Shown here: positions 3,535-56,952 of the stretch, in pieces
Layout: each line of letters opens with the position of its first letter
Numbering within the stretch: position 1 is the stretch's first letter
DNA from: Siphonodentalium dalli
Taxonomy: Eukaryota > Mollusca > Scaphopoda > Gadilida > Siphonodentaliidae
Reading direction: 5' to 3'
NCBI GenBank assembly: GCA_032622095.1
Contig: CP136061.1
Span: 15,562,440-15,626,439, forward strand
Length of the DNA stretch: 64,000 nt
The notes under the pieces: model-generated
The model's input: only the letters and a program-made list of their open reading frames with translations
The model's database searches: none
What the model was told of the DNA's origin: nothing
Position numbers and translations under genes: made by a program

Positions 3535-3643
3535 GTTATTAATGGTGGTCCGCTGCCAAACGCTCCCTTAATTCAACCTTTATCAAGCTTCGATTCTTCT
3601 GGTACATTCATCGGGTTTAACCAACTTAAGGCTCTACTCCCAG
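3535..3643 (+). CDS. MCM3AP: MCM3AP exon 1 of window (residues 1-36)
   Basis: The acceptor is TTTTCAG at 3528-3534 and the donor is CCCAG|GTATGT at 3643/3644. It starts in phase 0 and ends after one base of the next codon. The protein begins VINGGPLPNAPL, matching the IVNGGPLP motif that follows the SAC3 domain region in vertebrate GANP, and ends NQLKALLP. The donor chosen is the first of 112 near-identical copies. It gives the shortest protein, and exon 2 supplies the two bases needed to complete the codon. Reading past the donor stays open to a TAA at 4084-4086. Confidence 0.88.
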
Positions 3644-14293: not shown

Positions 14294-14332
<39 letters not shown>

Positions 14333-44300: not shown

Positions 44301-47300
44301 GCCTGCTGCGCATTTCACACACGTTTTGACCTTAGACAGAGGCGATTTGGTGACTCGAATATATAAGAAAATGCACTGGCACAGGATCTTAAATGCTGCA
44401 TCACTGTAGCTCCTGTCATGGAAGGGTTAAGAATTAATATAATTTACATTTCAGAATTACCACCACATTACTGGAATCATGACGACCAGCTTCAGAATAT
44501 CGCAGAGCGTCTGGGTACACTCGGACTACCAGCGTTTATCTTCGGCAAGGAGTCGGAACAATGGACAAATGTGACCGAAGATATCAATAAATTTATGAGT
44601 GCCGTGACTGGCAACGACACTTCATCATCAAGTGTCTTCCTAAAATCAAGGTGAATATCATCCCAAATCTTTTGACAAGTGAATCATACAGCAATGCTAA
44701 TTCAAAATATATCAACCAATCTAAGAGTAACATCCATGATTTGTGGAGATATATGGCCTGTTAAAGACCCAATTAATTTTTGATTGCCCAGTTCACATTA
44801 TACACGACATATTTCATATTATATACACCCCCCAGATCACATTATACACGACAATATATAGAGGATCTACAATGAGTCTCCAGTTTTTGTGGAATTTACA
44901 GACGAGTCCAGTAAATTAGGTCTGGACCAAGCCTTTGGTGAGGCCCAGACCTAATTTCCTGGAAGAGTTTTGTAAATTCCACTATAAACTGGGGACGAGT
45001 TGTAGATTCTATTTATTACATGATCCAGAACCTCGACAAAACAAATTTAAATCAACAAATGGGACATAAAACTGACATCGGGTTCCATAAGACATGCAAT
45101 GACGTTTCACGTAACTATGCATTGTTTGCCCATGTAAAGAAATAGTCCCAGATAAAGACTCTGACATATTTAATGGCATATATTTAATTACAGAACTTTT
45201 CAAACTCTTCATTCATTATAGTTTGTTGGAAAAATATAGGAAACCATAGTATTTTGAGACATAGCATATGGATTGTAAAACAACATATTGGAAGTCAACG
45301 GTCACCAGGAACTATTTCCTGTTATTAAACGTACGTTTAATATCACAATTTATAGAATGTGTTTATTGAATGGAATAAATATAAATTAATTATTAAACCA
45401 GAATACAGAACAGCTGTGGTCTAGGAGTGTCCCCCAAGTGATAGAGATTCTCAGATTCACCCCAAGACTTCCCCTGTTAGTTACCCAAGATGCATCGTAA
45501 TTCACAACTAAGAGATAGAGTTATTCCCCTTCCATTGAGAATAATAAACTATCTGTAAAGACCAGATCGAAAAAATGCACACAACACATGTCGGTACCTT
45601 GACAAAAACAAAATGTTCACAGTTTAATCGAATAGATCAGTGATAATATAATGTTTTGGAGCTCCTCTTTCAAATGGTATATTATAAGGATATCTGGATC
45701 TGGGGATTCGAAGATTAAGTGGGTCTTTATGGTCTATTGGATGTGGTGACAAGAACAAAACACAGCCAGGTCAGGTAAAATTATAATTTAATGCCTCAAG
45801 TTCATTTACATACCTGTTCTATACCCTAGAAGAAGCATGTAAATTAACCCTCACATGACTGGAGCTTCCTGAATTTTTTTTAAAACCCTTTGCCAATGCA
45901 TTATCTTATATATGCGAGGCTCCCTATGTGGGACTCGCATATATAAGAGAATGCACTGGCACATGGTATTTAAGCTGCACCAGCTCAGGTCCCATCATGA
46001 AAGTACATGGTCGACTTTCAAACAGGAAATGGATAGTTTTCGAGAAATTCGCTGGAATTTTTGGTGTGTTTCCATTAGTTCTAAAACTACTCCACATTTA
46101 TGTGCCATCAGGTTGTAATCATTCAATTGGATCGAGCCATCAGGATTTAATCATTCGCTTGGATTGAGGCATGTTTTTATATCACGAAAACAAAGATTGT
46201 ACCAAATTAGTGTGAAACTGATTTTGAATTATTTTTGTGAAACTGATTTTGAATTATTTTTGTGAAATATGATTTTGGGTTATCCCTCTTATATTAAACT
46301 AGAAGGTGACCCGACTTCGTCCTGGCTTTGACCTTGAATTGTCCATTTTGAAGGTCAAGGTCAAGTGGGGTCACGATTTGACCAGTCCAAAAACACTGCC
46401 CGGACAAAAGTACCCGACAAACGTGCCCGTCGAAATCCATCCGGTTTTACCCGATTTGACCTTGCATTGATAATTTTGAAGGTCAAGGTCTGGTCGGGGT
46501 CACGATTGGACCCGTCCAAAACAATCAGTGGACAAAAGTAACCCCACGTATCAAATTTCGTCGAAATCCCATCAAAATTGGCGATTTGACCTTGAAGTTA
46601 CCCGATTTCAAGGTCAAGGTCACGTCGCACGGGCAAATGAATATGCTTATGAGACTCGCCATAAGAAAGTACCCCCACATACCAAGTTTCATCGAAATCC
46701 TGTGATATTCTGGCGTTTGACCTTGAAATGACCCGATTTCAAGGTCAAGGTGACGTCGCACGGACAAATTAATATGCCTATGTTCGTCCCCGGCCGAAAA
46801 TACCCCCACATACCAAGTTTCATCGAAATCGGGTGTGCCGTTTTCGAGTTCATCGCGAACAGACAGACAGACACACAGACAGATCTTCCAAAATATATAA
46901 TAGAAGATTTGTAAAACGGCAAAAATAAAAATAACTCAATCAACGAAAAAGTGAGAACAGTATCATTCTCCGTTATTCCAGGGTGAACAGGCTGTTGGTA
47001 AAAGCTTGTGAAGACTTTGAAGACTCATGTTATCTGATTTCTATGTCTTATTAATTCCAGGGTAAACAGGCTGTTGGTTAAAGCTTGTGAAGACTTTGAA
47101 GACTCAAGTTATAATTATCTGATTTCTATGTCTTATTAATTCCAGGGTAAACAGGCTGTTGGTTAAAGCTTGTGAAGACTTTGAAGACTCATGCTATCTT
47201 ATGGAGAAGGAAGAAGGTTGCCAGCCGATGTACGTCAACGCTCCATGGACCGATGTCATCATGTCATGTATAGACTACAAAATCAAAATGGTTGACTTCT

Positions 47301-50300
47301 CCGACCCAAATATAGAATCCGAGGTACGCCTTCATTGATGAGTAGTTATCCCTCATGAAATGTTCAGATAATAAGTTCATCAAATGTCCATAGGACGAAG
47401 TTATTATCTAAACATTTTCCTCAATAAAAAGGGCTCCTTCTGTACTTTTATTTATCTGTTGTCTGCTTTTATTACCATAACATCCCTCCAAATCAATAAT
47501 AAACTGAATAAATAATGTGATGTACACAGTCAAATTGGAACACACCTCTAATTATACCCCCACTCTAGAAGATAATGGGGGGTATACTGGATTGACTGTC
47601 TCTGTCCGTTTGTCCGTCCGTCTGGCTTGATAACACGGAACAAATATGAACCAATTAAAAAAAAAAATTGTTTACAAGTTGCTTGTCACAGTATCTCAAA
47701 TCAGTGAGTAAACGATGTTTGTCCCAAATTTTTTGCCTGAGTTATGGACCTTAGAGTGTCATTTTTTTGTGATTTTTGTCCATTCAGCTTTCAAACAGAT
47801 ATGAACTGATCTCAATAATTTTTGGTACACAAGTTGCTTGCCACACTCTCTCAAATTATTGCGAAAATAAAGTTTATCCCAATTGTTTTGTCTGTGTTGT
47901 GACCCTTAGTTTATAAATTTTTGGCAATTTTTTTTGGTCAAATCAGTATTTAGGTTTGCAAACTCTTGTTCAGCCTAACCCTTTGTATATTAAATACTCA
48001 TTGATGAGTAGTTCCCTTATTAACCCTTTCTATATTAAATACTCATTGATGAGTAGTTCCCTTATTAACCCTTTCTATATTAAATACTCATTGATGAGTA
48101 GTTCCCTCATGATCCCTTTTTTTTGGTCAAATCAGTATTTAGGTTTGCAACCTCTTGTTCAGCCTAACCCTTTGTATATTAAATACTCATTGATGAGTAG
48201 TTCCCTTATTAACCCTTTGTATATTAAATACTCATTGATGAGTAGTTCCCTTATTAACCCTTTCTATATTAAATACTCATCGATGAGTAGTTCCCTCATG
48301 AACCCTTTCTATACTAAATACTCATTAATGAGTAGTTCCCTTATTAACCCTTTCTATATTAAATACTCATTGATGAGTAGTTCCCTTATTAACCCTTTCT
48401 ATACTAAATATTCATTGAGGAGTAGTTCCCTTGTTAACACTTTCTATATTAAATATTCATTGATGAGTAGTTCCCTCATGAACCCTTTCTATATTAAATA
48501 CTCATCGATGAGTAGTTCCCTCATGAACCCTTTGTATATTAAATACTCATTGATGAGTAGTTCCCTTATTAACCCTTTCTATATTAAATACTCATCGATG
48601 AGTAGTTCCCTCATGAACCCTTTCTATACTAAATACTCATTAATGAGTAGTTCCCTTATTAACCCTTTCTATATTAAATACTCATTGATGAGTAGTTCCC
48701 TTATTAACCCTTTCTATACTAAATATTCATTGAGGAGTAGTTCCCTTGTTAACACTTTCTATATTAAATATTCATTGATGAGTAGTTCCCTCATGAACCC
48801 TTTCTATATTAAATACTCATCGATGAGTAGTTCCCTCATGAACCCTTTCTATATTAAATACTCATTGATGAGTAGTTCCCTTAGGAAATGTTCAGAATAA
48901 TATGTTCAACATCTTATTATCTGAACTTTTCCCCACAAAAGAATATGAATCCTTCTGCATTTGTATCTTCTTTTTGTTTGTTTGTTGTCTGGTCCTATTA
49001 CCTGAACATCCCTCCAAATTAATAATAGACCATTCCGATGTATACTATTATAGTTGAATGGAAGAATCCATTTAGTACAGAAAAGGTTAATATGCCGTCT
49101 GAATTTACATAATTTTATTGACAGGATGTTATGGATGACATGGTTGTTGTGTACAGTGAAGACAATATGAAGAGATTTACTGTGACGCAAGAATGGAAGA
49201 ATGCTGTCAGGGACGCTCAGTTACAAAGTGAGTTCCATCATTGCAAAATGGCATCAGAACATGGCTCACATGGTCATGTGACATCAGGAGGCCAGGCTTA
49301 AAATTAAGAGGACGAAACCCACCATCACGTTAGGCTGGTTCCCTTCAATCCATTCTAATTAACAAATCCCACCATCATGTTAGACTGGTTCTCTGCCATC
49401 CATTATAATTAAAATCTGGTCCATAAAACTGTAAGGTAGAATGAAATCAAGAACGTCGAGATCGAGTTGAGGAATAAGTTATATTGTTCTATTTATTGGA
49501 AATGTTCAGATAATAAATTCAAAAGACAGTCATTTGTTGAACTTATTATTTAAACATTTCCCTGAATAAATAGGGCTCCTTCTGCACACTTATTTATCTG
49601 TCGTCTGTCCATATTTCTTAGACCTAATTGTGTAAAAATCAACCAATATTAACATTATTTAGGTCAATTATAAGTGTCATATATTAACCAGTTCTGTACA
49701 AAAGCATCATGAGTAGTTATCCCTTAGGAAATGTTCAGATAATATGTTCAACAAAGGACAGTCTGAATATTTCCCTCTATAAATAGGGCTCCTTCTGTAC
49801 TTTTATTAATGTGTTGTCTGCTTTTATCAGCTTAACATCCCTACAAATTAAGCATAGACCATTCTGATGTACACTTTTTAACTGAATGGGAGAATCAATT
49901 TAATATAGAAAGGGATATTTGAGGATTTGCCTGACCTGTTTATCTACTGCATGGTTTATTTACAGTAACGTCAACATACAGATTATTCATTGTTGGTGAT
50001 CTTCCCTGGAGATTCACATCTCACCTCTCTTTATATATATTTACAGGAACGTCAACATACAGATTATTCGTTGTTGGTGATCTTCCCTGGAGATTCATAT
50101 CTCACCTCTCTTTATATATATTTACATTAACGTCAACATACAGATTATTCATTGTTGGTGATCTTCCCTGGAGATTCACATCTCACCTCTCTTTATATAT
50201 ATTTACAGGAACGTCAACATACAGATTATTCGTTGTTGGTGATCTTCCCTGGAGATTCATATCTCACCTCTCTTTATATATATTTACATTAACGTCAACA

Positions 50301-53300
50301 TACAGATTATTCATTGTTGGTGATCTTCCCTGGAGATTCACATCTCACCTCTCTTTATATATATTTACAGGAACGTCAACATACAGATTATTCGTTGTTG
50401 GTGATCTTCCCTGGAGATTCATATCTCACCTCTCTTTATATATATTTACATTAACGTCAACATACAGATTATTCATTGTTGGTGATCTTCCTTGGAGATT
50501 CATATCTCACCTCTCTTTATATATATATTTACATTAACGTCAACATACTGATTATTCATTGTTGGTGATCTTCCTTGGAGATTCATATCTCACCTCTCTT
50601 TATATATATTTACAGTAACGTCAACATACAGATTATTCGTTGTTGGTGATCTTCCCTGGAGATTCACATCTCACCTCTCTTTATATATATTTACAGGAGC
50701 GTACAGATTATTCATTGTTGGTGATCTTCCCTGGAGATTCACATCTCACCTCTCTTTATATATATTTACATTAACGTCAACATACAGATTATTCATTGTT
50801 GGTGATCTTCCCTGGAGATTCATATCTCACCTCTCTTTATATATATTTACAGGAACGTCAACATACAGATTATTCATTGTTGGTGATCTTCCCTGGAGAT
50901 TCATATCTCACCTCTCTTTATATATATTTACATTAACGTCAACATACAGATTATTCATTGTTGGTGATCTTCCCTGGAGATTCATATCTCACCTCTCTTT
51001 ATATATATTTACGGGAACGTCAACATACAGATTATTCATTGTTGGTGATCTTCCCTGGAGATTCATATCTCACCTCTCTTTATATATATTTACATTAACG
51101 TCAACATACAGATTATTCGTTGTTGGTGATCTTCCCTGGAGATTCATATCTCACCTCTCTTTATATATATTTACGGGAACGTCAACATACAGATTATTCA
51201 TTGTTGGTGATCTTCCCTGGAGATTCATATCTCACCTCTCTTTATATATATTTACAGGAACGTCAACATACAGATTATTCATTGTTGGTGATCTTCCCTG
51301 GAGATTCATATCTCACCTCTCTTTATATATATTTACATTAACGTCAACATACAGATTATTCGTTGTTGGTGATCTTCCCTGGAGATTCATATCTCACCTC
51401 TCTTTATATATATTTACGGGAACGTCAACATACAGATTATTCATTGTTGGTGATCTTCCCTGGAGATTCATATCTCACCTCTCTTTATATATATTTACAG
51501 GAACGTCAACATACAGATTATTCATTGTTGGTGATCTTCCCTGGAGATTCATATCTCACCTCTCTTTATATATATTTACAGGAACGTCAACATACAGATT
51601 ATTCGTTGTTGGTGATCTTCCTTGGAGATTCATATCTCACCTCTCTTTATATATATTTACATTAACGTCAACATACAGATTATTCATTGTTGGTGATCTT
51701 CCCTGGAGATTCATATCTCACCTCTCTTTATATATATTTACAGGAACGTCAACATACAGATTATTCATTGTTGGTGATCTTCCTTGGAGATTCATATCTC
51801 ACCTCTCTTTATATATATTTACAGTAACGTCAACATACAGATTATTCATTGTTGGTGATCTTCCTTGGAGATTCATATCTCACCTCTCTTTATATATATT
51901 TACATTAACGTCAACATACAGATTATTCATTGTTGGTGATCTTCCTTGGAGATTCATATCTCACCTCTCTTTATATATATTTACAGGAACGTCAACATAC
52001 AGATTATTCGTTGTTGGTGATCTTCCCTGGAGATTCATATCTCACCTCTCTTTATATATATTTACATTAACGTCAACATACAGATTATTCGTTGTTGGTG
52101 ATCTTCCCTGGAGATTCATATCTCACCTCTCTTTATATATATTTACGGGAACGTCAACATACAGATTATTCATTGTTGGTGATCTTCCCTGGAGATTCAT
52201 ATCTCACCTCTCTTTATATATATTTACAGGAACGTCAACATACAGATTATTCATTGTTGGTGATCTTCCCTGGAGATTCATATCTCACCTCTCTTTATAT
52301 ATATTTACAGTAACGTCAACATACAGATTATTCATTGTTGGTGATCTTCCTTGGAGATTCATATCTCACCTCTCTTTATATATATTTACAGGAGCGTCAA
52401 CATACAGATTATTCATTGTTGGTGATCTTCCCTGGAGATTCATATCTCACCTCTCTTTATATATATTTACATTAACGTCAACATACAGATTATTCGTTGT
52501 TGGTGATCTTCCCTGGAGATTCATATCTCACCTCTCTTTATATATATTTACAGGAGCGTCAACATACAGATTATTCATTGTTGGTGATCTTCCCTGGAGA
52601 TTCATATCTCACCTCTCTTTATATATATTTACAGGAACGTCAACATACAGATTATTCATTGTTGGTGATCTTCCTTGGAGATTCATATCTCACCTCTCTT
52701 TATATATATTTACAGGAACGTCAACATACAGATTATTCATTGTTGGTGATCTTCCCTGGAGATTCATATCTCACCTCTCTTTATATATATTTACATTAAC
52801 GTCAACATACAGATTATTCATTGTTGGTGATCTTCCCTGGAGATTCACATCTCACCTCTCTTTATATATATTTACATTAACGTCAACATACAGATTATTC
52901 ATTGTTGGTGATCTTCCCTGGAGATTCATATCTCACCTCTCTTTATATATATTTACAGGAACGTCAACATACAGATTATTCATTGTTGGTGATCTTCCCT
53001 GGAGATTCATATCTCACCTCTCTTTATATATATTTACATTAACGTCAACATACAGATTATTCATTGTTGGTGATCTTCCCTGGAGATTCATATCTCACCT
53101 CTCTTTATATATATTTACATTAACGTCAACATACAGATTATTCATTGTTGGTGATCTTCCCTGGAGATTCATATCTCACCTCTCTTTATATATATTTACA
53201 TTAACGTCAACATACAGATTATTCATTGTTGGTGATCTTCCCTGGAGATTCACATCTCACCTCTCTTTATATATATTTACATTAACGTCAACATACAGAT

Positions 53301-56300
53301 TATTCATTGTTGGTGATCTTCCCTGGAGATTCATATCTCACCTCTCTTTATATATATTTACAGGAACGTCAACATACAGATTATTCATTGTTGGTGATCT
53401 TCCCTGGAGATTCATATCTCACCTCTCTTTATATATATTTACATTAACGTCAACATACAGATTATTCATTGTTGGTGATCTTCCCTGGAGATTCATATCT
53501 CACCTCTCTTTATATATATTTACGGGAACGTCAACATACAGATTATTCATTGTTGGTGATCTTCCCTGGAGATTCATATCTCACCTCTCTTTATATATAT
53601 TTACATTAACGTCAACATACAGATTATTCGTTGTTGGTGATCTTCCCTGGAGATTCATATCTCACCTCTCTTTATATATATTTACGGGAACGTCAACATA
53701 CAGATTATTCATTGTTGGTGATCTTCCCTGGAGATTCATATCTCACCTCTCTTTATATATATTTACAGGAACGTCAACATACAGATTATTCATTGTTGGT
53801 GATCTTCCCTGGAGATTCATATCTCACCTCTCTTTATATATATTTACATTAACGTCAACATACAGATTATTCGTTGTTGGTGATCTTCCCTGGAGATTCA
53901 TATCTCACCTCTCTTTATATATATTTACGGGAACGTCAACATACAGATTATTCATTGTTGGTGATCTTCCCTGGAGATTCATATCTCACCTCTCTTTATA
54001 TATATTTACAGTAACGTCAACATACAGATTATTCATTGTTGGTGATCTTCCCTGGAGATTCATATCTCACCTCTCTTTATATATATTTACAGGAGTGTCA
54101 ACATACAGATTATTCATTGTTGGTGATCTTCCCTGGAGATTCATATCTCACCTCTCTTTATATATATTTACAGGAACGTCAACATACAGATTATTCATTG
54201 TTGGTGATCTTCCCTGGAGATTCATATCTCACCTCTCTTTATATATATTTACATTAACGTCAACATACAGATTATTCGTTGTTGGTGATCTTCCCTGGAG
54301 ATTCATATCTCACCTCTCTTTATATATATTTACGGGAACGTCAACATACAGATTATTCATTGTTGGTGATCTTCCCTGGAGATTCATATCTCACCTCTCT
54401 TTATATATATTTACAGGAACGTCAACATACAGATTATTCATTGTTGGTGATCTTCCCTGGAGATTCATATCTCACCTCTCTTTATATATATTTACAGGAA
54501 CGTCAACATACAGATTATTCGTTGTTGGTGATCTTCCTTGGAGATTCATATCTCACCTCTCTTTATATATATTTACATTAACGTCAACATACAGATTATT
54601 CATTGTTGGTGATCTTCCCTGGAGATTCATATCTCACCTCTCTTTATATATATTTACAGGAACGTCAACATACAGATTATTCATTGTTGGTGATCTTCCT
54701 TGGAGATTCATATCTCACCTCTCTTTATATATATTTACAGTAACGTCAACATACAGATTATTCATTGTTGGTGATCTTCCTTGGAGATTCATATCTCACC
54801 TCTCTTTATATATATTTACAGGAACGTCAACATACAGATTATTCGTTGTTGGTGATCTTCCCTGGAGATTCATATCTCACCTCTCTTTATATATATTTAC
54901 ATTAACGTCAACATACAGATTATTCGTTGTTGGTGATCTTCCCTGGAGATTCATATCTCACCTCTCTTTATATATATTTACGGGAACGTCAACATACAGA
55001 TTATTCATTGTTGGTGATCTTCCCTGGAGATTCATATCTCACCTCTCTTTATATATATTTACAGGAACGTCAACATACAGATTATTCATTGTTGGTGATC
55101 TTCCCTGGAGATTCATATCTCACCTCTCTTTATATATATTTACAGTAACGTCAACATACAGATTATTCATTGTTGGTGATCTTCCTTGGAGATTCATATC
55201 TCACCTCTCTTTATATATATTTACAGGAGCGTCAACATACAGATTATTCATTGTTGGTGATCTTCCCTGGAGATTCATATCTCACCTCTCTTTATATATA
55301 TTTACATTAACGTCAACATACAGATTATTCGTTGTTGGTGATCTTCCCTGGAGATTCATATCTCACCTCTCTTTATATATATTTACAGGAGCGTCAACAT
55401 ACAGATTATTCATTGTTGGTGATCTTCCCTGGAGATTCATATCTCACCTCTCTTTATATATATTTACAGGAACGTCAACATACAGATTATTCATTGTTGG
55501 TGATCTTCCTTGGAGATTCATATCTCACCTCTCTTTATATATATTTACAGGAACGTCAACATACAGATTATTCATTGTTGGTGATCTTCCCTGGAGATTC
55601 ATATCTCACCTCTCTTTATATATATTTACATTAACGTCAACATACAGATTATTCATTGTTGGTGATCTTCCCTGGAGATTCATATCTCACCTCTCCTTAT
55701 ATATATTTACAGGAACGTCAACATACAGATTATTCATTGTTGGTGATCTTCCTTGGAGATTCATATCTCACCTCTCTTTATATATATTTACAGGAACGTC
55801 AACATACAGATTATTCATTGTTGGTGATCTTCCCTGGAGATTCATATCTCACCTCTCTTTATATATATTTACAGGAACGTCAACATACAGATTATTCGTT
55901 GTTGGTGATCTTCCCTGGAGATTCATATCTCACCTATCCTTATATATATTTACAGTAACGTCAACATACAGATTATTCATTGTTGGTGATCTTCCCTGGA
56001 GATTCATATCTCACCTCTCTTTATATATATTTACAGGAACGTCAACATACAGATTATTCGTTGTTGGTGATCTTCCCTGGAGATTCATATCTCACCTCTC
56101 TTTATATATATTTACATTAACGTCAACATACAGATTATTCGTTGTTGGTGATCTTCCCTGGAGATTCATATCTCACCTCTCTTTATATATATTTACATTA
56201 ACGTCAACATACAGATTATTCATTGTTGGTGATCTTCCCTGGAGATTCATATCTCACCTCTCTTTATATATATTTACATTAACGTCAACATACAGATTAT

Positions 56301-56952
56301 TCATTGTTGGTGATCTTCCCTGGAGATTCATATCTCACCTCTCTTTATATATATTTACAGGAGTGTCAACATACAGATTATTCATTGTTGGTGATCTTCC
56401 CTGGAGATTCATATCTCACCTCTCTTTATATATATTTACAGGAACGTCAACATACAGATTATTCATTGTTGGTGATCTTCCCTGGAGATTCACATCTCAC
56501 CTCTCCTCATATATATATTTACAGGAACGTCAACATACAGAAGCACGCTGGATAAAGCTTTAGAAAATAATAAGAAAAAGAATGAGGAAAATAAGGAGAA
56601 TATACCGTTAAAATCTCTGTTAGAGTCGACCAAGGTGAAGGTCATAGAACTCAAAACCCCGACCAAAGCTCTCACATCTGCTCTCCAGGCTGAGAAACAG
56701 AAGGCGCAGGAATTTGATGACTATTTACAGAGAGTTCTGAATGAGGACGTCTGCTACAGTGCGCAGCCAGTACCTATGATGGAGGCGGAGTTAGATTCCT
56801 CTGATTCAACAGATGTTCCACATTCTAATGGAGTTCATGATGATGGCTCACTGAGTGATAGATTGTCGAGTTTTAAATCTGACATGGACAGAATTCGGAG
56901 GTCTGATGAGATGTTCGAGAAGCGATTGAGGAATCTTATGAACTCTTTGTGA
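3535..56952 (+). CDS. MCM3AP: MCM3AP/GANP gene, 3' half: 14 exons encoding the C-terminal 971 residues
   Basis: Join of 3535-3643, 12977-13146, 25455-25612, 26561-26728, 28153-28679, 34624-34766, 36025-36219, 40304-40558, 42467-42628, 43392-43515, 44455-44650, 47146-47323, 49125-49227 and 56525-56952. The sum is 2916 nt, an exact 972 codons with the stop, and all introns are GT-AG. From family knowledge, GANP is the Sac3-type scaffold of TREX-2: it docks mRNPs at the nuclear pore, and its C-terminal part (MCM3AP) binds MCM3. Colinear matches to human GANP as I recall it include VINGGPLP (human IVNGGPLP), the helical CID region, TYWKLLLALPE (human FWKLVLVLPD), YSWPVSEY (human LSWPVTEF) and HAPE (human NAPE). 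The SAC3 domain and start codon lie upstream of the window. The remaining uncertainty is exact exon edges where tandem copies of splice sites exist. Confidence 0.93.
3629..8973. repeat. 45-bp tandem array of the MCM3AP exon-1 donor junction, 112 units in 20 blocks
   Basis: Each unit holds the last exon codons and 5' splice site (CTCTACTCCCAG|GTATGT) plus about 25 bp of intron. Blocks of 10,3,12,3,5,4,6,4,3,4,4,7,7,7,3,6,5,3,7,9 units are separated by a 16-bp spacer TTAGTGTTTAACCAAC, whose second half repeats exon bases (TTTAACCAAC) lying just 5' of the unit. 112 x 45 plus 19 x 16 equals 5344 bp, which fits the observed span. Copies are nearly identical (C/T in GTCACAG or GTTACAG; rare GTCACTG). 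Both strands stay open within a block because 45 is a multiple of three; these frames are not independent genes. Confidence 0.97.
9037..9900 (+). repeat. Dispersed repeat starting AGCTCACCTGAGACGAAG, with GTCC/GTCTG microsatellite
   Basis: The start motif is followed by CGGTGGAGCTATAG and a (TCCG/TCTG)n tract at about 9080-9150. Then come about three diverged internal units of about 170 bp with TTCAGATTTGTTCAAATG and GGCCATAACTC. A second copy without the head lies at 11317-11930. I associate this family with bivalve genomes; no coding frame is seen. Confidence 0.7.
10205..10640. mobile_element. MITE family with GAATGAGGTCC / GGGACCTCATTCT palindromes
   Basis: Inverted segments such as AGAATGAGGTTCCCAGAGGG and CACCCTTATGGGACCTCATT bracket short spacers. 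The same family occurs at 35040-35575 and 56976-57890, with internal phrases on latent host-neutral sequence (GAAGTTCCCCAGTTGAAG in those copies, inverted here). No target duplication was identified. A poly-G run follows at about 10705-10722. Confidence 0.6.
11085..11200. mobile_element. Decayed TTAA MITE copy
   Basis: TTAACCATTTCATGACCAG on the left and GGTCATGGTAATTTTGTTAA on the right enclose the family palindrome (GCATTCTCTTATATATG...CATATAAAAGAGAATGC). The ends are degenerate, so this is an old copy. Confidence 0.5.
11317..11930 (+). repeat. Second copy of the GGCCATAACTC dispersed repeat
   Basis: GAGCTCACATCTTCTC is followed by diverged units with GGTTCATATTTGGT, CCTTGGGTGAC and GGCCATAACTC, paralleling 9160-9880. 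It is preceded by a poly-G run at about 11268-11280. No gene is present. Confidence 0.6.
12977..13146 (+). CDS. MCM3AP: MCM3AP exon 2 of window (residues 37-93)
   Basis: The acceptor is ATTCCAG ending at 12976 and the donor is GAG|GTATGT at 13146/13147. The first two bases complete a Glu codon, and the exon ends in phase 0. The product is low in complexity and rich in Ser, Pro, Thr and Gln, and ends PKPRPVYSGE, which aligns with the vertebrate linker ending PEPVPMYSDE just before the helical CID region. The internal ATG at 12979 is not taken as a start, because the reading continues from exon 1. Confidence 0.87.
13218..13460. mobile_element. Fold-back (palindromic) MITE just after exon 2
   Basis: Inverted arms CTCTATGAACGATGCAAACA and TTGCATCGTTCATAGAGCAC flank about 40 bp of spacer. 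The outer parts match the element split at 8983/12342 and a fragment at 31280-31380 and 33420-33480. It begins about 70 bp into intron 2. Confidence 0.7.
13565..13741. repeat. Long inverted repeat arm, partner at 20575-20740
   Basis: The stretch containing GATACGTTACACACTGAAC, GGATCTATGAGATCCG and GTCACAGGTCACGTGTCC recurs in reverse complement at 20575-20740. The arm continues at 15742-15790 (TAATATAAGCGAGAGGACAC, reverse complement at 20520-20570), which shows that the 13745-15741 element was inserted into the left arm. The two arms may be the ends of a larger transposon or an inverted duplication. Confidence 0.7.
13745..15741. mobile_element. ~2.0-kb DNA transposon with GGCC termini and 3-bp TAA target duplication
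   Basis: Left terminus GGCCAAAAAAAAAAAA then GGTTTTGGTTCTCAGGCA; right terminus GCCCGAGAACCAAAAC then a T-run and GGCC, an imperfect inverted repeat. TAA occurs at 13742-13744 and 15742-15744. The uninterrupted target is seen in the inverted copy at about 20570 (GCTTATATTACTGCTAG), which supports precise insertion. A 3-bp TWA duplication suggests PIF/Harbinger-like, but no transposase is readable. A related element is at 36520-37599. Confidence 0.7.
14215..14950 (+). repeat. Dispersed repeat with TCCG/TGTC microsatellite and ~150-180-bp internal units
   Basis: It has a (TGTC)n tract at about 14288-14332 followed by repeated phrases GGAGTTATGGCCC, GATCGGAACCAAATTTGG and GAGTTCGAATATGGG. A fragment recurs at 15370-15470. 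It lies inside the 2-kb GGCC element. Open frames here are incidental. Confidence 0.6.
15745..18600. other. Intron 2, no gene recognised
   Basis: Apart from the inverted-repeat arm at 15742-15790, I recognise nothing. A phrase on the pattern CATTTGTATGGATTATAGCT at about 16350 has a diverged echo at about 17010 (ATTTGGATAATAGCCATGC), so an old repeat is likely. Open frames are short and featureless. Confidence 0.35.
18627..18860 (+). pseudogene. C-terminal fragment of a non-LTR retrotransposon reverse transcriptase protein
   Basis: The open frame ends TRGNCFNLQKHHSS, then FFTNRVAEMWNKLPEYIV and ETGAFQNFE before a TGA at 18858-18860. The pattern TRG-x-x-F-x-L, then FF-x-x-R-x-x-x-x-W-x-x-LP, then a short spacer and F is typical of the extreme C-terminus of CR1/L2/jockey-type reverse transcriptases (family knowledge). 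A TAA at 18624-18626 closes the frame upstream and no polymerase motifs are seen, so this is a 5'-truncated dead copy in intron 2. Confidence 0.65.
18861..20350. other. Intron 2, no gene recognised
   Basis: GC-richer sequence to about 19210 may be the 3' end of the retroelement fragment just upstream. The 129-codon frame at 19243-19632 resembles nothing I know. A short poly-G run sits at about 20164-20175. Confidence 0.3.
20360..20770. repeat. Inverted-repeat cluster, including right arm of the 13.5/20.6-kb repeat
   Basis: GTTCAGTGTGTAACGTATCT occurs at about 20368 and 20710, and in reverse complement at about 13583. AACATTTTCAATAGAAAATA at about 20401 recurs in reverse complement at about 20743. 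The arrangement reads as two outward-facing transposon ends joined around one short target, meaning nested or rejoined copies of one TIR element. Confidence 0.55.
20852..21210. mobile_element. TTAA-flanked MITE inserted in the 45-bp satellite
   Basis: TTAA at 20848-20851 and 21211-21214; termini CCCTTTACCCAACA and TGTTGGGTAAAGGG. The flanks AGTATAGAATGG and TAAGGGAACTACTC join to give a normal satellite unit, so the MITE inserted at the TTAA of the first unit. Two full palindromic cores lie inside, separated by A/T-rich sequence. Confidence 0.9.
21211..23998. repeat. 45-bp satellite array, about 62 copies, intron 2
   Basis: The unit is TTAATAAGGGAACTACTCGT followed by CAATGAGTATTTAGTATAGAATGGG. 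Variants are CTCATCAATG for CTCGTCAATG, and 44-bp units lacking one G. Read on the minus strand the unit encodes a stop-free 15-residue repeat (SSSLINPFYTKYSLT), but this is a by-product. The same family forms arrays in intron 7 (longer unit) and, inverted, in intron 12. No MCM3AP exon sequence is present in the unit. Confidence 0.95.
23999..25040. mobile_element. 1042-bp non-autonomous hAT-like element with 8-bp target duplication
   Basis: Termini TAGAGATGGGCGGTA and TACCGCCCATCTCTA form a 15-bp perfect inverted repeat, with further GGTATCGGTA / TACCGATACC inverted blocks inside. It is flanked by CTACTCGT at 23991-23998 and 25041-25048, an exact 8-bp duplication, as expected for hAT transposition. 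It interrupts a 45-bp satellite unit. No transposase frame is present. Confidence 0.92.
25041..25125. repeat. Distal end of the 45-bp satellite beyond the hAT element
   Basis: Nearly two further units (CAATGAGTATTTAGTATAG, then TTTAGCATAGACTGGG) continue the array after the insertion and fade into unique sequence. Confidence 0.85.
25455..25612 (+). CDS. MCM3AP: MCM3AP exon 3 of window (residues 94-146)
   Basis: The acceptor is ATTTTCAG ending at 25454 and the donor is TTAAG|GTTAGT at 25612/25613. It enters in phase 0 and leaves two bases of an Arg codon. The protein is helical (AIKDIARSMFLDVISGIARN, then KHAVDTILDTQTALMDSIV), corresponding to the amphipathic segment that opens the centrin/ENY2-interacting region of GANP. 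The last 90 bp of the exon, with the donor, recur twice in the following intron. The first donor is chosen because it gives the shortest form and the right phase; the second donor would also be in frame. Confidence 0.86.
25613..25810 (+). repeat. Two 90-bp copies of the exon-3 end plus donor
   Basis: Donor copies at 25703 (AAG|GTTAGT) and 25793 (CG|GTTGGT) follow the real one at 25613 at exact 90-bp spacing. Each copy repeats exon sequence encoding KHAVDTILDTQ as KHAVQAIL(I/D)TQNAIV and the end SMLR. The frame stays open through both copies to a stop at 25872-25874, so use of the second donor would add 30 residues in frame. Confidence 0.9.
25811..26165. repeat. Short direct repeats and a 26-bp poly-C tract
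   Basis: CTGGTTAAACAACACATGTG recurs at about 25811 and 25931, and CCGATCGGCCA followed by GTCCGCCTCTGC recurs near 25860 and 26138. An uninterrupted C-run spans 26014-26039. This lies in intron 3. Confidence 0.75.
26250..26471. mobile_element. Decayed TTAA MITE upstream of exon 4
   Basis: TTAA at 26246-26249 and 26472-26475. The left end is ACATTCCATGACTGGAGC and the right end GCTCCTGTCATGATATG. The family palindromic core is present but diverged. It ends about 90 bp before the exon-4 acceptor. Confidence 0.6.
26561..26728 (+). CDS. MCM3AP: MCM3AP exon 4 of window (residues 146-202)
   Basis: The acceptor is TCTATTATAG ending at 26560 and the donor is AATCG|GTGAGT at 26728/26729. The first base completes Arg and the last two begin another Arg. 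The product is a highly charged helix (ERKALEREREYTLNRLS) followed by IELMDDILKTSVDKQ, matching the ELSQGLAVELMERVMMEF stretch of human GANP that forms the long helix wrapped by ENY2. Reading past the donor meets TGA at once, so this donor is effectively required. Three decayed copies of the donor follow. Confidence 0.9.
26729..26902 (+). repeat. Three 56-bp copies of the exon-4 end plus donor
   Basis: ATCG|GTGAGT recurs at 26785, 26841 and 26897 after the real donor at 26729. Each copy repeats AAACAGATAGATATCATAG of the exon with small changes (GCAAAGGAATAG for GTAAAGGATGAG). 56 bp is not a multiple of three, and TGA follows the first donor directly, so the extra donors can only yield truncated products. 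Confidence 0.92.
27821..28085. mobile_element. TTAA-flanked MITE, CCCTTTGAGTGCCAGG subfamily
   Basis: TTAA at 27817-27820 and 28086-28089. Termini CCCTTTGAGTGCCAGG and CCTGGCACTCAAAGGG are a perfect 16-bp inverted repeat. It contains one copy of the shared palindromic core. It lies about 70 bp upstream of the exon-5 acceptor. Confidence 0.9.
28153..28679 (+). CDS. MCM3AP: MCM3AP exon 5 of window (residues 202-378), CID and following region
   Basis: The acceptor is TGTTTTCCAG ending at 28152 and the donor is CCAG|GTTAGT at 28679/28680. At 527 nt it is the largest exon. It encodes YVQGELKKQCIEK, then a helical stretch, then FFSHWKSLFSKR and MQTFPQAPS, matching human CKYLQRWREAV and MRAFPAAP around the centrin-binding end of the CID; the Trp is conserved. 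The last part (KNRWCDIALNAY, WQPLDIPKVI) matches the human segment just before the WKLVLVLPD motif. No tandem copies of its splice sites are seen on the donor side. Confidence 0.93.
28872..30940. mobile_element. 2.07-kb TTAA-target element carrying a THAP-like ORF
   Basis: TTAA at 28868-28871 and 30941-30944. Imperfect termini are AGGATTACAATGCTC and GAGC-like CAGCACCCTATTCCT. The bases either side rejoin to TTCTTTAACAATTTTATAA, as found uninterrupted at about 3423-3440, which supports a clean insertion. The interior has repeated AATAAAGAGCGTT motifs and one THAP-like frame; no catalytic domain was recognised. Confidence 0.75.
29312..29476 (+). CDS. THAP-like zinc-finger fragment, 54 codons
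   Basis: It starts ATG at 29312 and stops at 29474-29476. The product MPYKCSVFGCGWSC, then LYSFPNDVRLRAIWQDFCGK, fits the N-terminal half of a THAP domain: Met, Cys-x4-Cys, a short loop, (Y/F)xFPxD and an LRxxW helix. The second zinc pair (Cys-x2-His) is missing, either because the frame is truncated or because it continues in an unseen exon. THAP domains are common in DNA-transposon proteins, and this one lies inside a TTAA element, so I read it as a transposon-derived fragment. Confidence 0.6.
   Translation: MPYKCSVFGCGWSCDFQLGIMLYSFPNDVRLRAIWQDFCGKPVAQNQKPITYTK
31237..32940. other. Intron 5, old repeat fragments, no gene
   Basis: A fragment of the fold-back family occurs at about 31275-31380. 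TGTCAGGC/GCCTGACA-rich segments at 31735-31850 and 32275-32370 look like two ends of an old element. A 38-bp direct duplication (GTGATTATACATAAAATGGG) lies at about 32795-32870. Nothing coding is recognised. Confidence 0.5.
32965..33120. repeat. Fold-back repeat, intron 5
   Basis: ATCGCATTGTTTCGAGGTTG and CAACCAAGAAACAATGCGAT are inverted arms. Between them, GTCAAAATTCACC...GGTGAATATTGAC forms the inner stem around GGCCGTAGGCC. It is followed by CGCGCTTTGATTGGAC. Related fold-backs are at about 44850 and 58430. Confidence 0.75.
33676..34623 (+). repeat. 49-bp tandem array of the exon-6 acceptor region, 19 units
   Basis: The unit is GTTATCATATGAATGG, TTTGTGACAGCCTTGG, ACTATATTTTTCTACAG. The interval from 33695 to 34623 equals 19 x 49 minus 3, matching three units that lack one G. 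Each unit carries a pyrimidine tract and CAG; early copies read TTTTTTGACAG, one near 34523 reads TACATG and has lost AG. The last copy is the real exon-6 acceptor. Every unit has an in-register TGA (GGTTTGTGA), so upstream acceptors would truncate the protein. Confidence 0.95.
34624..34766 (+). CDS. MCM3AP: MCM3AP exon 6 of window (residues 378-425)
   Basis: The acceptor is TTTTTCTACAG ending at 34623 and the donor is TACAAG|GTTGGT at 34766/34767. The first two bases complete Gly. The product SSMTTYWKLLLALPESGGK and the following LLCKWLRSKF match human FWKLVLVLPD and ILANWLKVKF, the start of the C-terminal MCM3AP region. The acceptor is the last of about 20 tandem copies. Any upstream copy would read YHMNGL and then a TGA stop, so the final copy must be used for full-length protein. 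Confidence 0.92.
35040..35575. mobile_element. GAATGAGGTCC MITE family, one long or two joined copies
   Basis: Palindromic modules AGAATGAGGTCCCCAGAGGG and CCCTCTGGGAACCTCATTCT recur, with an internal stretch containing GAAGTTCCCCAGTTGAAG and GAGACTATAGATACTTCC. The same order is seen at 56976-57890 and, inverted, at 10205-10640. It lies in intron 6. Confidence 0.7.
35583..35954. mobile_element. TTAA-flanked MITE, CCCTTTACCCAACA subfamily, intron 6
   Basis: TTAA at 35579-35582 and 35955-35958; termini CCCTTTACCCAACA and TGTTGGGTAAAGGG. It contains two palindromic cores separated by A/T-rich spacer and is nearly identical to 20852-21210. It ends 70 bp upstream of exon 7. Confidence 0.92.
36025..36219 (+). 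CDS. MCM3AP: MCM3AP exon 7 of window (residues 426-490)
   Basis: The acceptor is TTGTTATTATAG ending at 36024 and the donor is CTACTC|GTGAGT at 36219/36220, phase 0 on both sides. It encodes SDLLSHYRVEIDEGSKRQLA and later FSGTSAILFVMKPIPDDDET, which correspond to human [20 protein letters not shown] and GASGLMLLLPP. A 372-bp TTAA MITE ends 70 bp upstream of the exon. Confidence 0.9.
36520..37599. mobile_element. 1.08-kb GGCC-ended element with TTA target duplication, intron 7
   Basis: TTA at 36517-36519 and 37600-37602. The left end is GGCCAAAACAAATTAATTAA then GATTCTCAGGCACCGCCGC; the right end is GCCTGAGAATCAATTC ... TTTGTTTGGCC. The terminal pattern and 3-bp TWA duplication match the element at 13745-15741, so both belong to one family. 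It carries a Cys-rich exon-like frame at 37004-37186. Confidence 0.8.
37004..37186 (+). pseudogene. Cys-rich terminal exon of a transposon gene
   Basis: An acceptor-like ATATTTCAG precedes a frame beginning CTGTAAATCC, read with its Cys as SCKSFPDICIKCGG, then GCHPQCKTCLEKF and a Lys-rich tail ending NKAK and a stop at 37184-37186. Cys-x2-Cys and Cys-x3-Cys-x2-Cys pairs suggest a zinc ribbon. No ATG opens it. It lies inside the GGCC element, so I infer it is a remnant 3' exon of the element's own gene. Family not identified. Confidence 0.4.
37845..38030. mobile_element. Decayed TTAA-family MITE
   Basis: The core palindrome (ATTCTCTTATATATGTGAGG...GGCATATATAAGAGATTAC) lies between AAGTTTGTGGGAACC on the left and GCTCCAGTCATGGAAGGG on the right. 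The right end matches the CCTTCCATGACTGGAGC subfamily, inverted, but TTAA has decayed. Confidence 0.5.
38169..38298. repeat. Near-perfect hairpin, arms about 62 bp
   Basis: TACAGTAATGCTCTAAGTAA at the left is mirrored by TTACTTATAGCATTACTGTA at the right, with GGGTAACTTTTCAGGAT / ATCCTGAAAAGTTACCC at the centre and almost no loop. Only a few mismatches are visible (for example CCACAGCAG versus CTGCTATGG). Probably a very short fold-back element. Confidence 0.85.
38527..39790. repeat. 66-68-bp minisatellite, about 18-19 copies, intron 7
   Basis: The unit is TTAAACTTATTATCTGAACA, TTTCCTATGGGATAACTACT, CATCAATGATGCTTTAGTAT, AGAAAGGA. It is related to the 45-bp satellite (TACTCATCAATGA and TTTAGTATAGAA are shared) with an extra ~21-bp block. 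Diversity increases distally (AATTATGC, TGTAGAAAGGGTTACAC). The tail 38300-38530 matches, inverted, sequences at 47420-47520 and 48900-49090. Confidence 0.93.
39804..40243. mobile_element. TTAA MITE with eroded right end, intron 7
   Basis: TTAA at 39800-39803, then CCCTTTACCCAACAGAACGG. Two palindromic cores are separated by an expanded A/T-rich spacer. The right end stops at TTTTGTTGGTA without the expected AAAGGGTTAA. The exon-8 acceptor lies about 60 bp downstream. Confidence 0.8.
40304..40558 (+). CDS. MCM3AP: MCM3AP exon 8 of window (residues 491-575)
   Basis: The acceptor is TTTAATTTCAG ending at 40303 and the donor is GACAAG|GTATAT at 40558/40559, phase 0 on both sides. EYWLEEQDRLLTILNSKP and NPVVPLVVLVP match human DVYWLSALLQLKQLLQAKP and QPALPLVVLVP; the PLVVLVP block is identical. 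The exon is cleaner and more GC-rich than the repeat-laden sequence around it. Confidence 0.93.
40559..41875. other. Intron 8 proximal part: no gene; one partial MITE core
   Basis: A partial copy of the palindromic core with its A/T-rich spacer lies at about 41020-41165 (GCCAATGCATTCTCTAATAT...AGAGAATGCATTGGCACAGG). A short (GTCT)n tract occurs at about 41386-41405. The Lys-rich frame at 40638-40826 looks like transposon-end sequence (GATTGTTTCTCAGGGATCGC recalls the GGCC element ends). Confidence 0.4.
41880..42358. mobile_element. TTAA-flanked MITE, CCCTTTGAGTGCCA subfamily, intron 8
   Basis: TTAA at 41876-41879 and 42359-42362; termini CCCTTTGAGTGCCACGGG and CCTGGCACACAAAGGG. It contains CCGATCTCATCGGCCC near the left end, T-rich runs, and one shared palindromic core near the right. 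Confidence 0.85.
42467..42628 (+). CDS. MCM3AP: MCM3AP exon 9 of window (residues 576-629)
   Basis: The acceptor is TTTCTAATTTAAG ending at 42466 and the donor is CATCAT|GTGAGT at 42628/42629, phase 0 on both sides. The product LCDAIQWLARFKPSELHLEA matches human [20 protein letters not shown], and FLQDSFFTLVLQNLKERR matches GHEFSGRFFHDRRERR. It contains no ATG in frame, so a start-codon-based ORF search misses it. The donor and some 15 bp of exon end are repeated once 34 bp downstream. Confidence 0.88.
42629..42670 (+). repeat. Single 34-bp duplicate of the exon-9 donor
   Basis: AAAGGATATCTTCATCAT|GTGAGT at 42663 repeats the exon end AAAGGATACCTTCATCAT|GTGAGT at 42629. Thirty-four base pairs is out of frame, so use of the second donor would shift the reading. 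Confidence 0.85.
42679..42750. mobile_element. 72-bp minimal TTAA inverted-repeat element
   Basis: TTAA at 42675-42678 and 42751-42754. Termini CACGTTGAGTGCCA and TGGCACTCAACGTG form a perfect inverted repeat similar to the CCCTTTGAGTGCCA subfamily. It has no palindromic core. It lies nine bases beyond the duplicated donor of intron 9. Confidence 0.8.
42821..43064. mobile_element. TTAA-flanked MITE, CCCTTCCATGACTGGA subfamily, intron 9
   Basis: TTAA at 42817-42820 and 43065-43068; termini CCCTTCCATGACTGG and CTCATCATGAAAGGG. It contains two palindromic cores in the order typical of this subfamily. Confidence 0.85.
43392..43515 (+). CDS. MCM3AP: MCM3AP exon 10 of window (residues 630-671)
   Basis: The acceptor is TTCTATTGATAG ending at 43391 and the donor is GCTCCAG|GTACAG at 43515/43516. 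It enters in phase 0 and leaves one base of a Glu codon. DPNLLINFYNHCVEFLINLL and YSWPVSEY match human [20 protein letters not shown] and LSWPVTEF. Three further donors, each 66 bp on, keep the frame, so the exon could be longer by 22, 44 or 66 residues. The first donor gives the human-like length. Confidence 0.9.
43516..43735 (+). repeat. Three 66-bp in-frame copies of the exon-10 end plus donor
   Basis: GCTCCAG|GTACA recurs at 43582, 43648 and 43714 after the real donor at 43516. Each unit repeats exon codons KDYSWPVSEYCNSHAP followed by GTVLFI from intron. Sixty-six bp is 22 codons and the frame is open until after the last copy (stop at 43731-43733), so all four donors give in-frame splices to exon 11. 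Confidence 0.95.
43790..43908. repeat. 58-bp direct duplication
   Basis: CTGAATCTGACATGGTATGG through TTAGGTCACTAGATCA occurs twice in tandem. It lies in intron 10 with no splice-site content noticed. Confidence 0.85.
44017..44067. repeat. Perfect 22-bp-arm hairpin
   Basis: GCTTTGCTTCTTGCTGCAGT plus GG pairs with CC plus ACTGCAGCAAGAAGCAAAGC around a 7-base loop GTGCATG. It is in intron 10. It is more GC-rich than the surroundings and has no visible transposon family. Confidence 0.9.
44340..44426. mobile_element. Right half of a TTAA MITE adjoining exon 11
   Basis: The right end GCTCCTGTCATGGAAGGG is followed by TTAA at 44427-44430. Only half of the last palindromic core is left (ATATATAAGAAAATGCACTG). 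The exon-11 acceptor is 25 bp beyond the TTAA. Confidence 0.65.
44455..44650 (+). CDS. MCM3AP: MCM3AP exon 11 of window (residues 671-736)
   Basis: The acceptor is TTACATTTCAG ending at 44454 and the donor is TCAAG|GTGAAT at 44650/44651. The first two bases complete Glu to give HAPE-LPPHYWN, matching human WNAPEHLAWLK. The product continues LGTLGLPAF and a Ser/Thr-rich tail ending SSSSVFLKS. The right half of a TTAA MITE ends only about 25 bp upstream of the acceptor. The upstream ATG at 44418 lies in MITE and intron sequence and is not used. Confidence 0.89.
44850..45015. repeat. Fold-back repeat, intron 11
   Basis: GAGTCTCCAGTTTTTGTGGA and TCCACTATAAACTGGGGACG are inverted arms. The inner stem TTAGGTCTGGACC / GGCCCAGACCTAA surrounds a short loop. 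The organisation resembles the fold-back at 58426-58600, which also begins TATATAGAGGATCT. Confidence 0.7.
45016..45840. other. Intron 11, nothing recognised
   Basis: AT-rich sequence without recognisable genes; the weak frame on the minus strand at 45009-45212 shows no family features. Confidence 0.35.
45848..46003. mobile_element. Decayed TTAA MITE, intron 11
   Basis: TTAA at 45844-45847 is followed by CCCTCACATGACTGGAGC. The right end reads CAGGTCCCATCATGAAAG and lacks the final GGTTAA. One palindromic core remains. Confidence 0.6.
46300..46910. repeat. Dispersed repeat rich in TTGACCTTGA / TCAAGGTCAAGG with GACA tail
   Basis: About four diverged units of 100-130 bp contain CATCGAAATC, TACCCCCACATACCAAGTTT and TTTCAAGGTCAAGGT, ending in (CAGA)n at about 46858-46882. 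The plus and minus frames with repeated motifs are by-products. Confidence 0.65.
46975..47145 (+). repeat. Two extra copies of the exon-12 acceptor (79 and 85 bp apart)
   Basis: TTCCAG|GGTGAACAGG at 46981/46982 and TTCCAG|GGTAAACAGG at 47060/47061 precede the real acceptor at 47145/47146. Each copy includes about 45 bp of exon (VNRLLVKACEDFEDS) and then GATTTCTATGTCTTATTAAT. In the register set by exon 11 both upstream copies hit TAA in TCTTATTAA, so they would truncate the protein. Confidence 0.92.
47146..47323 (+). CDS. MCM3AP: MCM3AP exon 12 of window (residues 736-795)
   Basis: The acceptor is TTAATTCCAG ending at 47145 and the donor is TCCGAG|GTACGC at 47323/47324. The product RVNRLLVKACEDFEDSCYLM is followed by APWTDVIMSCIDYKIKMVDF, matching human IPWDDLIALCINHKLRDW. 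Two earlier acceptor copies at 46981/46982 and 47060/47061 carry the same first exon codons but run into TAA within their own repeat, so only the third gives full-length product. Confidence 0.91.
47568..47960. repeat. Dispersed repeat with GTCCGTCCGTC tract
   Basis: Head ATGGGGGGTATACTGGATTG, then CTGTCCGTTTGTCCGTCCGT, then two diverged units with CAAGTTGCTTG, CACAGTATCTCAAATCA and TTGTCTGTGTTGTGACC. The GGGGGTATATTGGATTGAAT motif at 10722 is similar. Confidence 0.5.
47975..48890. repeat. Inverted copy of the 45-bp satellite, about 20 units, intron 12
   Basis: The unit is AACCCTTTCTATATTAAATA, CTCATTGATGAGTAGTTCCC, TTATT, the reverse complement type of the intron-2 satellite. Variation is ordered: a block of seven units (315 bp; with CATCGATG, CATTAATG and TTCATTGAGG variants) is itself duplicated, for example 48231 versus 48546. 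Flanking repeats (GGAAATGTTCAGATAATA) match those around the intron-7 array. Confidence 0.92.
49125..49227 (+). CDS. MCM3AP: MCM3AP exon 13 of window (residues 796-830)
   Basis: The acceptor is TTATTGACAG ending at 49124 and the donor is TTACAAA|GTGAGT at 49227/49228. It encodes DVMDDMVVVYSEDNMKRFTV and TQEWKNAVRDAQLQ, matching human [20 protein letters not shown] and SWEQARLQTQ. One base is left to start the next codon. The following 7.3-kb intron is mostly an 81-bp acceptor array. Confidence 0.88.
49228..49965. other. Intron 13 proximal: dispersed repeat fragments
   Basis: GGAAATGTTCAGATAATA, CTCCTTCTGTACTTTTATT and GACCATTCTGATGTACAC segments at about 49495-49600 and 49715-49915 are copies of the sequences flanking the 45/66-bp arrays. 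A short CCACCATCA(C/T)GTTAG(A/G)CTGG duplication occurs at about 49320 and 49368. No exon is seen. Confidence 0.6.
49966..56524 (+). repeat. 81-bp tandem array of the exon-14 acceptor junction, 81 units
   Basis: The unit is GAACGTCAACATACAG, ATTATTCATTGTTGGTGATC, TTCCCTGGAGATTCATATCT, CACCTCTCTTTATATATATT, TACAG. Span 6559 bp equals 81 x 81 with two +2 indels (about 50520 and the last unit) and one 6-bp deletion (about 50700). The unit ends in the exon-14 pyrimidine tract and AG and begins with the first bases of exon 14. By eye, about 44 of 82 junctions keep ACAG; about 29 read ACAT and about 9 ACGG, which would not splice. The frame in register with exon 13 is stop-free from 50552 to 56563. 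Confidence 0.96.
56525..56952 (+). CDS. MCM3AP: MCM3AP last coding exon (residues 830-971) with stop TGA
   Basis: The acceptor is ATATTTACAG ending at 56524; the stop is TGA at 56950-56952. The first two bases complete Arg, giving R-TSTYRSTLDKALENN, then a Lys/Glu-rich coiled stretch, QEFDDYLQRVLNED (human RFEDQLQQWLSED) and a terminal helix (SDRLSSFKSDMDRIRRSDEM; human LGERLKHLERLIRSS). Its first ~17 bases are identical to the start of each 81-bp repeat unit upstream. A 2-bp insertion in the last repeat puts upstream acceptors out of frame with this exon, so the final acceptor must be used for the native C-terminus. Confidence 0.92.

Follow-up and report, generated by a model that had tools for sequence, protein, structure and literature searches.

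Tandem repeat arrays spanning exon-intron junctions in MCM3AP and other genes of the scaphopod Siphonodentalium dalli

The window analyzed here is a stretch of 64,000 bp of the S. dalli genome (C1:15562440-15626439; genome 2.23 Gb, 9 contigs), to which coordinates without a contig prefix refer. It harbours the 3' part of an MCM3AP/GANP gene, i.e., its last 14 exons, on the plus strand (3535..56952), as recognized from the reading frame, PF16769 and tblastn with 12 homologues. Exons 1-7 of the window are found at 3535-3643, 12977-13146, 25455-25612, 26561-26728, 28153-28679, 34624-34766 and 36025-36219, and exons 8-14 at 40304-40558, 42467-42628, 43392-43515, 44455-44650, 47146-47323, 49125-49227 and 56525-56952. 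Splicing the 14 exons together yields an uninterrupted reading frame, 971 codons long and closed by a stop, which over most of its length is collinear with MCM3AP proteins of bivalves (28 to 32 % identity), and the PF16769 profile (MCM3AP_GANP) is matched by 4 of the 9 exon ORFs tested (E <= 0.0021), with 2 exceeding the curated cut-off; an earlier sequence-only reading had named the same gene. The SAC3 part of the gene lies directly upstream of the window. In quick trees, the gene is sister to nine bivalves (support 91, not starred) on a long branch. The live splice sites referred to below are those predicted from frame and homology; the frame stays intact and collinear with the homologues once the repeat copies described in the following are skipped in splicing.

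The window also holds two possible transposase remnants. One is an ORF in intron 5 (29195-29473) that resembles a THAP zinc-finger. The other, 3' of MCM3AP on the minus strand (61101-61460), encodes a CENP-B N-terminal DNA-binding domain (PF04218, E 1.4e-8) and looks like a remnant of a pogo-type transposase.

Tandem copies of an intron's own donor or acceptor junction were identified by TRF and direct reading in 8 of the 13 window introns of MCM3AP, with the copy numbers that the sequence-only reading had given. Donor arrays are present in introns 1, 3, 4, 9 and 10, acceptor arrays in introns 5, 11 and 13. The repeat unit straddles the junction and includes 3 to 49 exon bases, rather than beginning or ending exactly at the live exon as had been claimed. 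Every unit combines sequence of the exon end and of the intron that meet at its junction; the arrays thus represent independent events, in agreement with the earlier view.

The donor-junction array of intron 1 (3626..8972; this and all following window arrays on the plus strand) comprises 112 units of 45 bp (18 exon plus 27 intron bases), with a higher-order level in which a 16-bp spacer carrying 11 further exon bases lies between blocks of 45-bp units. It is nearly uniform, and the donor is intact in all 112 units. Fewer copies are found at the other donors: 2 extra, diverged copies of a 90-bp unit in intron 3 (25602..25804), 3 extra copies of a 56-bp unit (35 exon plus 21 intron bases) in intron 4 (26694..26903), and 3 extra copies of a 66-bp unit (49 exon plus 17 intron bases) in intron 10 (43467..43730). 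In case of the 45-, 66- and 90-bp donor arrays (introns 1, 10 and 3), the reading frame of the exon continues into the array. The donor junction of intron 9 (42611..42674) has 1 extra copy of a 34-bp unit, seen by eye; TRF assigns a period of 17, so that this copy escapes the TRF counting rule given below.

Among the acceptor-junction arrays, that of intron 5 (33673..34626) consists of 49-bp units (19.5 by TRF, 16 units fitting the consensus) having about 3 exon bases in common with the exon, and hence abuts the exon instead of copying it. Intron 11 (46975..47199) contains 2 extra copies of a 79/85-bp unit with about 48 exon bases. The array of intron 13 (49957..56541) is formed by about 81 units of 81 bp (81.3 by TRF) with 16 exon bases each, and 80 non-live units fit the consensus. 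Of these 80, 42 keep the acceptor AG and 38 have lost it; 5 of the 12 variable columns, including the most variable ones, lie within 6 bases around the acceptor. The closest upstream acceptor copy is 83 bases away and out of frame.

A ninth junction array of the gene is located upstream of the window (C1:15533776-15534123; 62-bp unit with 47 exon and 15 intron bases, 5.7 copies). Worn copies of exon ends also occur within introns: that of the exon 7 3' end (38116..38162, plus strand; 83 % over 47 bp) lies 1.9 kb into intron 7, and that of an upstream MCM3AP exon inside the intron of this exon (C1:15544909-15544959; 76 %). Downstream of the gene, the end of the last exon including the stop codon is copied (57379..57420, plus strand; 79 % over 42 bp). 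This exon-end duplication involves no splice site, which argues against a process that operates on the splice junction as such, as the sequence-only reading had envisaged.

Further repeats of the gene are located off its junctions. A 45-bp family (GGGTTAATAAGGGAACTACTCGTCAATGAGTATTTAGTATAGAAT) occupies 21208-23952 and 25040-25125 in intron 2 and, inverted, 47976-48883 in intron 12, and a 68-bp unit in intron 7 (38537-39782) is partly similar to it. In the intron following a SAC3 exon, a 21-bp array of about 91 copies lies at a distance of about 360 bp from the exon (L039:4679-6674, i.e., C1:15547118-15549113).

For comparison with chance, arrays were counted if they had a TRF score of 50 or more and a period of 20 or more, a rule set after a first look with looser cut-offs (the first 70 loci of the survey described below gave the same five matches both ways). 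MCM3AP contains 37 such arrays, and 8 of 40 junctions are overlapped, one of them upstream of the window; since 29 of the 37 lie elsewhere, the former statement that repeats sit at the junction every time does not hold. The unit-based expectation is 0.72 junctions versus 8 observed (P about 1e-6), or 0.98 if the junction arrays enter the rate (P about 1e-5). Random placement forbidding exon damage yielded 0.95 expected, and none of 200,000 draws reached 8. By contrast, a control counting local direct copies of 80-bp probes in MCM3AP revealed no excess (9 of 37 junction versus 89 of 468 intron probes, P = 0.40). Probes having distant copies were excluded (3 of 40 junction and 457 of 925 intron probes), and the limit was 2.5 kb; the arrays of introns 1 and 13 exceed this limit and hence are missing from the junction positives. 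The placement test is weighed above this control, because probes inside long arrays cannot represent junctions. MCM3AP having been chosen for being striking, a sample of other genes provides the fairer test.

For this sample, profile matches served to locate exons, which were examined together with as much as 450 bp of flanking sequence at either end (140 loci); exon borders were deduced from profile matches, frame and splice scores, and 249 junctions passed the score cut. Junction arrays are present at 12 of these 249 (4.8 %, 95 % interval 2.5 to 8.3 %), the sample being drawn from five protein families: 5 among 127 junctions of 70 TCP-1 and adaptin exons, 1 among 41 junctions of the representatives of 23 myosin head exon clusters, 2 (one marginal) among 50 junctions of 27 class I tRNA synthetase exons, and 4 among 31 junctions of 20 ubiquitin protease exons. 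MCM3AP is therefore not alone; it exceeds the sample (8/40 versus 12/249, P = 0.002), but was picked as striking. In total, 6 arrays at donors and 8 at acceptors are present in the survey loci; two of these arrays do not enter the count. One locus is marginal (L143, AT-rich and with about 6 exon bases). The arrays in the flanks lead to an expectation of 2.48 matches (P 1.2e-5), decreasing to 1.51 (P 7e-8) without five arrays of a dispersed inverted-repeat element and increasing to 3.91 (P 8e-4) if the junction matches are added to the rate. The element in question is short, contains inverted copies of GGTCCCCAGAGGGTGAATTTAGTGATGCTA, lies in introns near exons (L100, L109, L140, L160 and L169) and is scored by TRF as a tandem array, the period being about 87 to 103 bp. 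When arrays were placed at random within the 140 loci, the outcome was 12 versus 6.0 (P = 0.01); this test is strict, confining arrays to about 450 bp from an exon, and it allowed an overlap of up to 1.6 periods, with the L113 donor set by hand to the first copy and 1 of 38 arrays not fitting the placement rule. Over the sampled junctions, the arrays thus amount to 2 to 5 times expectation, depending on the null (P 0.01 to 1e-5), whereas the probe control in MCM3AP did not detect an excess (P = 0.40).

Selection of the survey exons differed between families. From the first TCP-1/adaptin set, 11 of 53 matches were dropped prior to reading, two being long and uninterrupted and nine judged, from coordinates and scores, to be second copies of duplicated segments; the second set lost 2 of 30 (long open), and the tRNA synthetase set 4 of 31 (intronless pieces). 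The 27 synthetase exons include five near-identical duplicate pairs, both members of which were retained in the count. In case of the ubiquitin proteases, 20 of 63 matches were read, picked mainly for having no internal stop. The myosin set comprised 47 exons out of 85 matches (30 loci and, in 12 stretches, 17 more exons), which were grouped into the 23 clusters; L111 to L114 were picked for odd open frames, and L113 is the one counted match of this set. Two more myosin clusters have arrays solely in non-representative copies (L014/L016 and L120). Many similar myosin head exons are clustered at about 274.2-275.5 Mb of contig C4, apparently due to recent gene amplification. Introns seemingly open in frame (up to 1553 aa) in the myosin exon listing proved to be a listing artefact, ordinary stops being present at the four places checked.

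Across 17 of 23 arrays, the exon share of the unit, entered by hand, ranges from 0.06 to 0.93 of the period (mean 0.62; KS P = 0.054 versus uniform). This wide spread would be expected of duplications falling at any position in the vicinity of the junction, and suggests that where a duplication begins or ends does not depend on the splice site. Of the earlier proposal, an excess over random placement is supported in MCM3AP and in other genes (the probe control aside), a process at the splice site itself is not. Comparison of the live unit with its nearest copy in ten arrays revealed 16 differences in 410 exon-derived positions versus 32 in 209 intron-derived ones, unit limits having been extended from the junction, which somewhat favours fewer exon-derived differences; such a deficit is expected if the exon half is constrained. 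Among the extra copies alone, exon-derived columns vary less than intron-derived ones in L058, L096 and L113 and more in L125, a mixed pattern not foreseen by the simple form of the duplication model favoured below.

Decoy sites have decayed in some arrays, namely those of intron 13 and of survey locus L058, where GT is lost in 5 of 10 extra donors and kept in the other 5, but not in the uniform array of intron 1; inactivation of decoys as a general rule was therefore dismissed. Likewise rejected was a preference for donors (13 to 6 at first count with worn copies included, P = 0.17; 14 to 11 with the later sets).

The structure of the junction arrays is already known, under the name mirages, from lancelets. 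As described in the parts of PMC3087553 and PMC3902484 accessible to us, lancelet mirages are minisatellites with units of 10 to 160 bp spanning exon-intron borders of both types, with regular mRNA reported to be undisturbed, with allele length variation and somatic instability, and with, e.g., 3 and 6 units in BflGb6. To this extent, the S. dalli arrays are alike: the unit spans the exon-intron border (intron 5 with 3 and L143 with about 6 exon bases being weak cases), measures tens to about 160 bp and places its extra copies inside the intron, 5' borders (introns 1, 3, 4, 9 and 10) as well as 3' borders (introns 5, 11 and 13) are affected, and many, though not all, copies keep AG or GT (112/112 in intron 1, 42/80 in intron 13, 5/10 in L058). 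They differ from what these sources describe in belonging to a mollusc genome, in reaching 112 copies and in affecting about 5 % of 249 sampled junctions, here in the sequence of one assembly only. Novel aspects are thus the animal group concerned, the frequency of the arrays, and array sizes of about 80 and 112 copies.

Two other systems are related to a lesser degree. Intron gain by tandem duplication, of which the accessible text of PMC4974935 presents a potato RdRp case, shares the duplication of an exonic or exon-intron segment together with splice signals, but in S. dalli the live intron borders lie outside the copies. Introners (PMC9860276) likewise bring recurrent splice-site-bearing sequence into many introns, being copies of one element inserted in many genes; in contrast, each S. 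dalli unit examined comes from the exon that it adjoins, and among these units no related sequence recurs across introns. A literature search at the level of titles and abstract openings retrieved no mollusc case of junction-spanning arrays. The available text on an abalone gene reports a 27-bp minisatellite within intron 3, not placed at a splice border (PMC6905558), and that on gastropod hemocyanin contains no junction-spanning repeats (PMC7931591).

Junction arrays are in excess over random placement, the size of this excess being disputed. That there is no real excess, some arrays of a minisatellite-rich genome simply landing on junctions, appears improbable. It would agree with the probe control and with the twofold difference in the strictest survey placement test (12 versus 6.0), but the probe control counts the interiors of long arrays, which can hold no live exon, besides setting aside 3 of 40 junction probes and missing the arrays of introns 1 and 13 beyond its 2.5-kb limit, and both exon-respecting placement (8 versus 0.95) and the unit-based survey expectation (12 versus 2.5 to 3.9) contradict it. 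A mutational process raising tandem duplication around splice junctions, such as transcription-linked pausing, R-loops or a chromatin edge at exons, would, as the sequence-only reading proposed, account for the excess in MCM3AP and in other genes, but is regarded as unlikely: unit offsets are spread over the unit without being pinned to the splice site, donors (6 survey arrays) are affected as well as acceptors (8 survey arrays), the copied end of the last exon spans a stop codon, and the coverage-type probe control lacks an excess. Rather unlikely, too, is that a process linked to transcription or chromatin truly concentrates duplication in this lineage on the DNA near splice junctions, with about one intron in ten carrying a growing junction array as standing raw material for new introns and isoforms.

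Maintenance of the extra copies by selection, be it for splice-site redundancy or for in-frame isoforms, might be read from the intact donors of intron 1 (112/112 units) and from the 45-, 66- and 90-bp donor arrays being in frame with their exon. It is nevertheless very improbable, given that periods are divisible by three in 9 of 23 arrays (P = 0.35), selection for this property hence being rejected, that the nearest upstream acceptor copy of intron 13 lies 83 bases away out of frame, and that AG is lost in 38 of 80 intron 13 units and GT in 5 of 10 extra L058 copies; moreover, the array of intron 1 is so uniform that its intact donors may signal youth only. Collapse or expansion of repeats during assembly can hardly explain the arrays. 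While the copy number of the long near-identical ones is that given by the assembly, unrelated genes on several contigs contain arrays with a small number of diverged copies, and exon ends copied with substitutions are not what an assembly error would produce.

Mirage-type arrays produced by ordinary local tandem duplication, masked by splicing and longer-lived where a constrained exon adjoins, are probably the correct explanation, though our confidence in it is limited. Duplications of about 25 to 145 bp would result from ordinary local slippage or end-joining that strikes the vicinity of the junction at random, with the unit happening to span the exon-intron border. They would be silent, as the live exon-proximal site would still be usable and the extra copies would come to lie inside the intron, while duplications wholly within exons would alter the protein and hence be removed. 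Junction duplications would also outlast purely intronic ones, because selection would hold the live exon half and deletions into the exon would be lost. Once two copies are present, unequal exchange could expand the array, here to 112 and about 81 units. Since duplication ends appear untied to the splice site and exon-derived bases differ less between live unit and nearest copy, ordinary duplication is favoured, a junction-directed process being less likely. Speaking against ordinary duplication, survivorship alone may be insufficient for the roughly 8-fold excess in MCM3AP, though the gene was picked for this excess.

The presence of a mirage-like structure so far from lancelets, at about 5 % of the sampled junctions and with as many as 112 copies, suggests that it is a general outcome of duplication and splicing, and gene annotation may overlook such arrays. 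Identical donors or acceptors beside a live exon represent natural experiments on spliceosome choice among many sites, as well as on the tandem-duplication route to new introns, and the variable columns at the acceptor of intron 13 could serve to test whether decoy sites are selected against.
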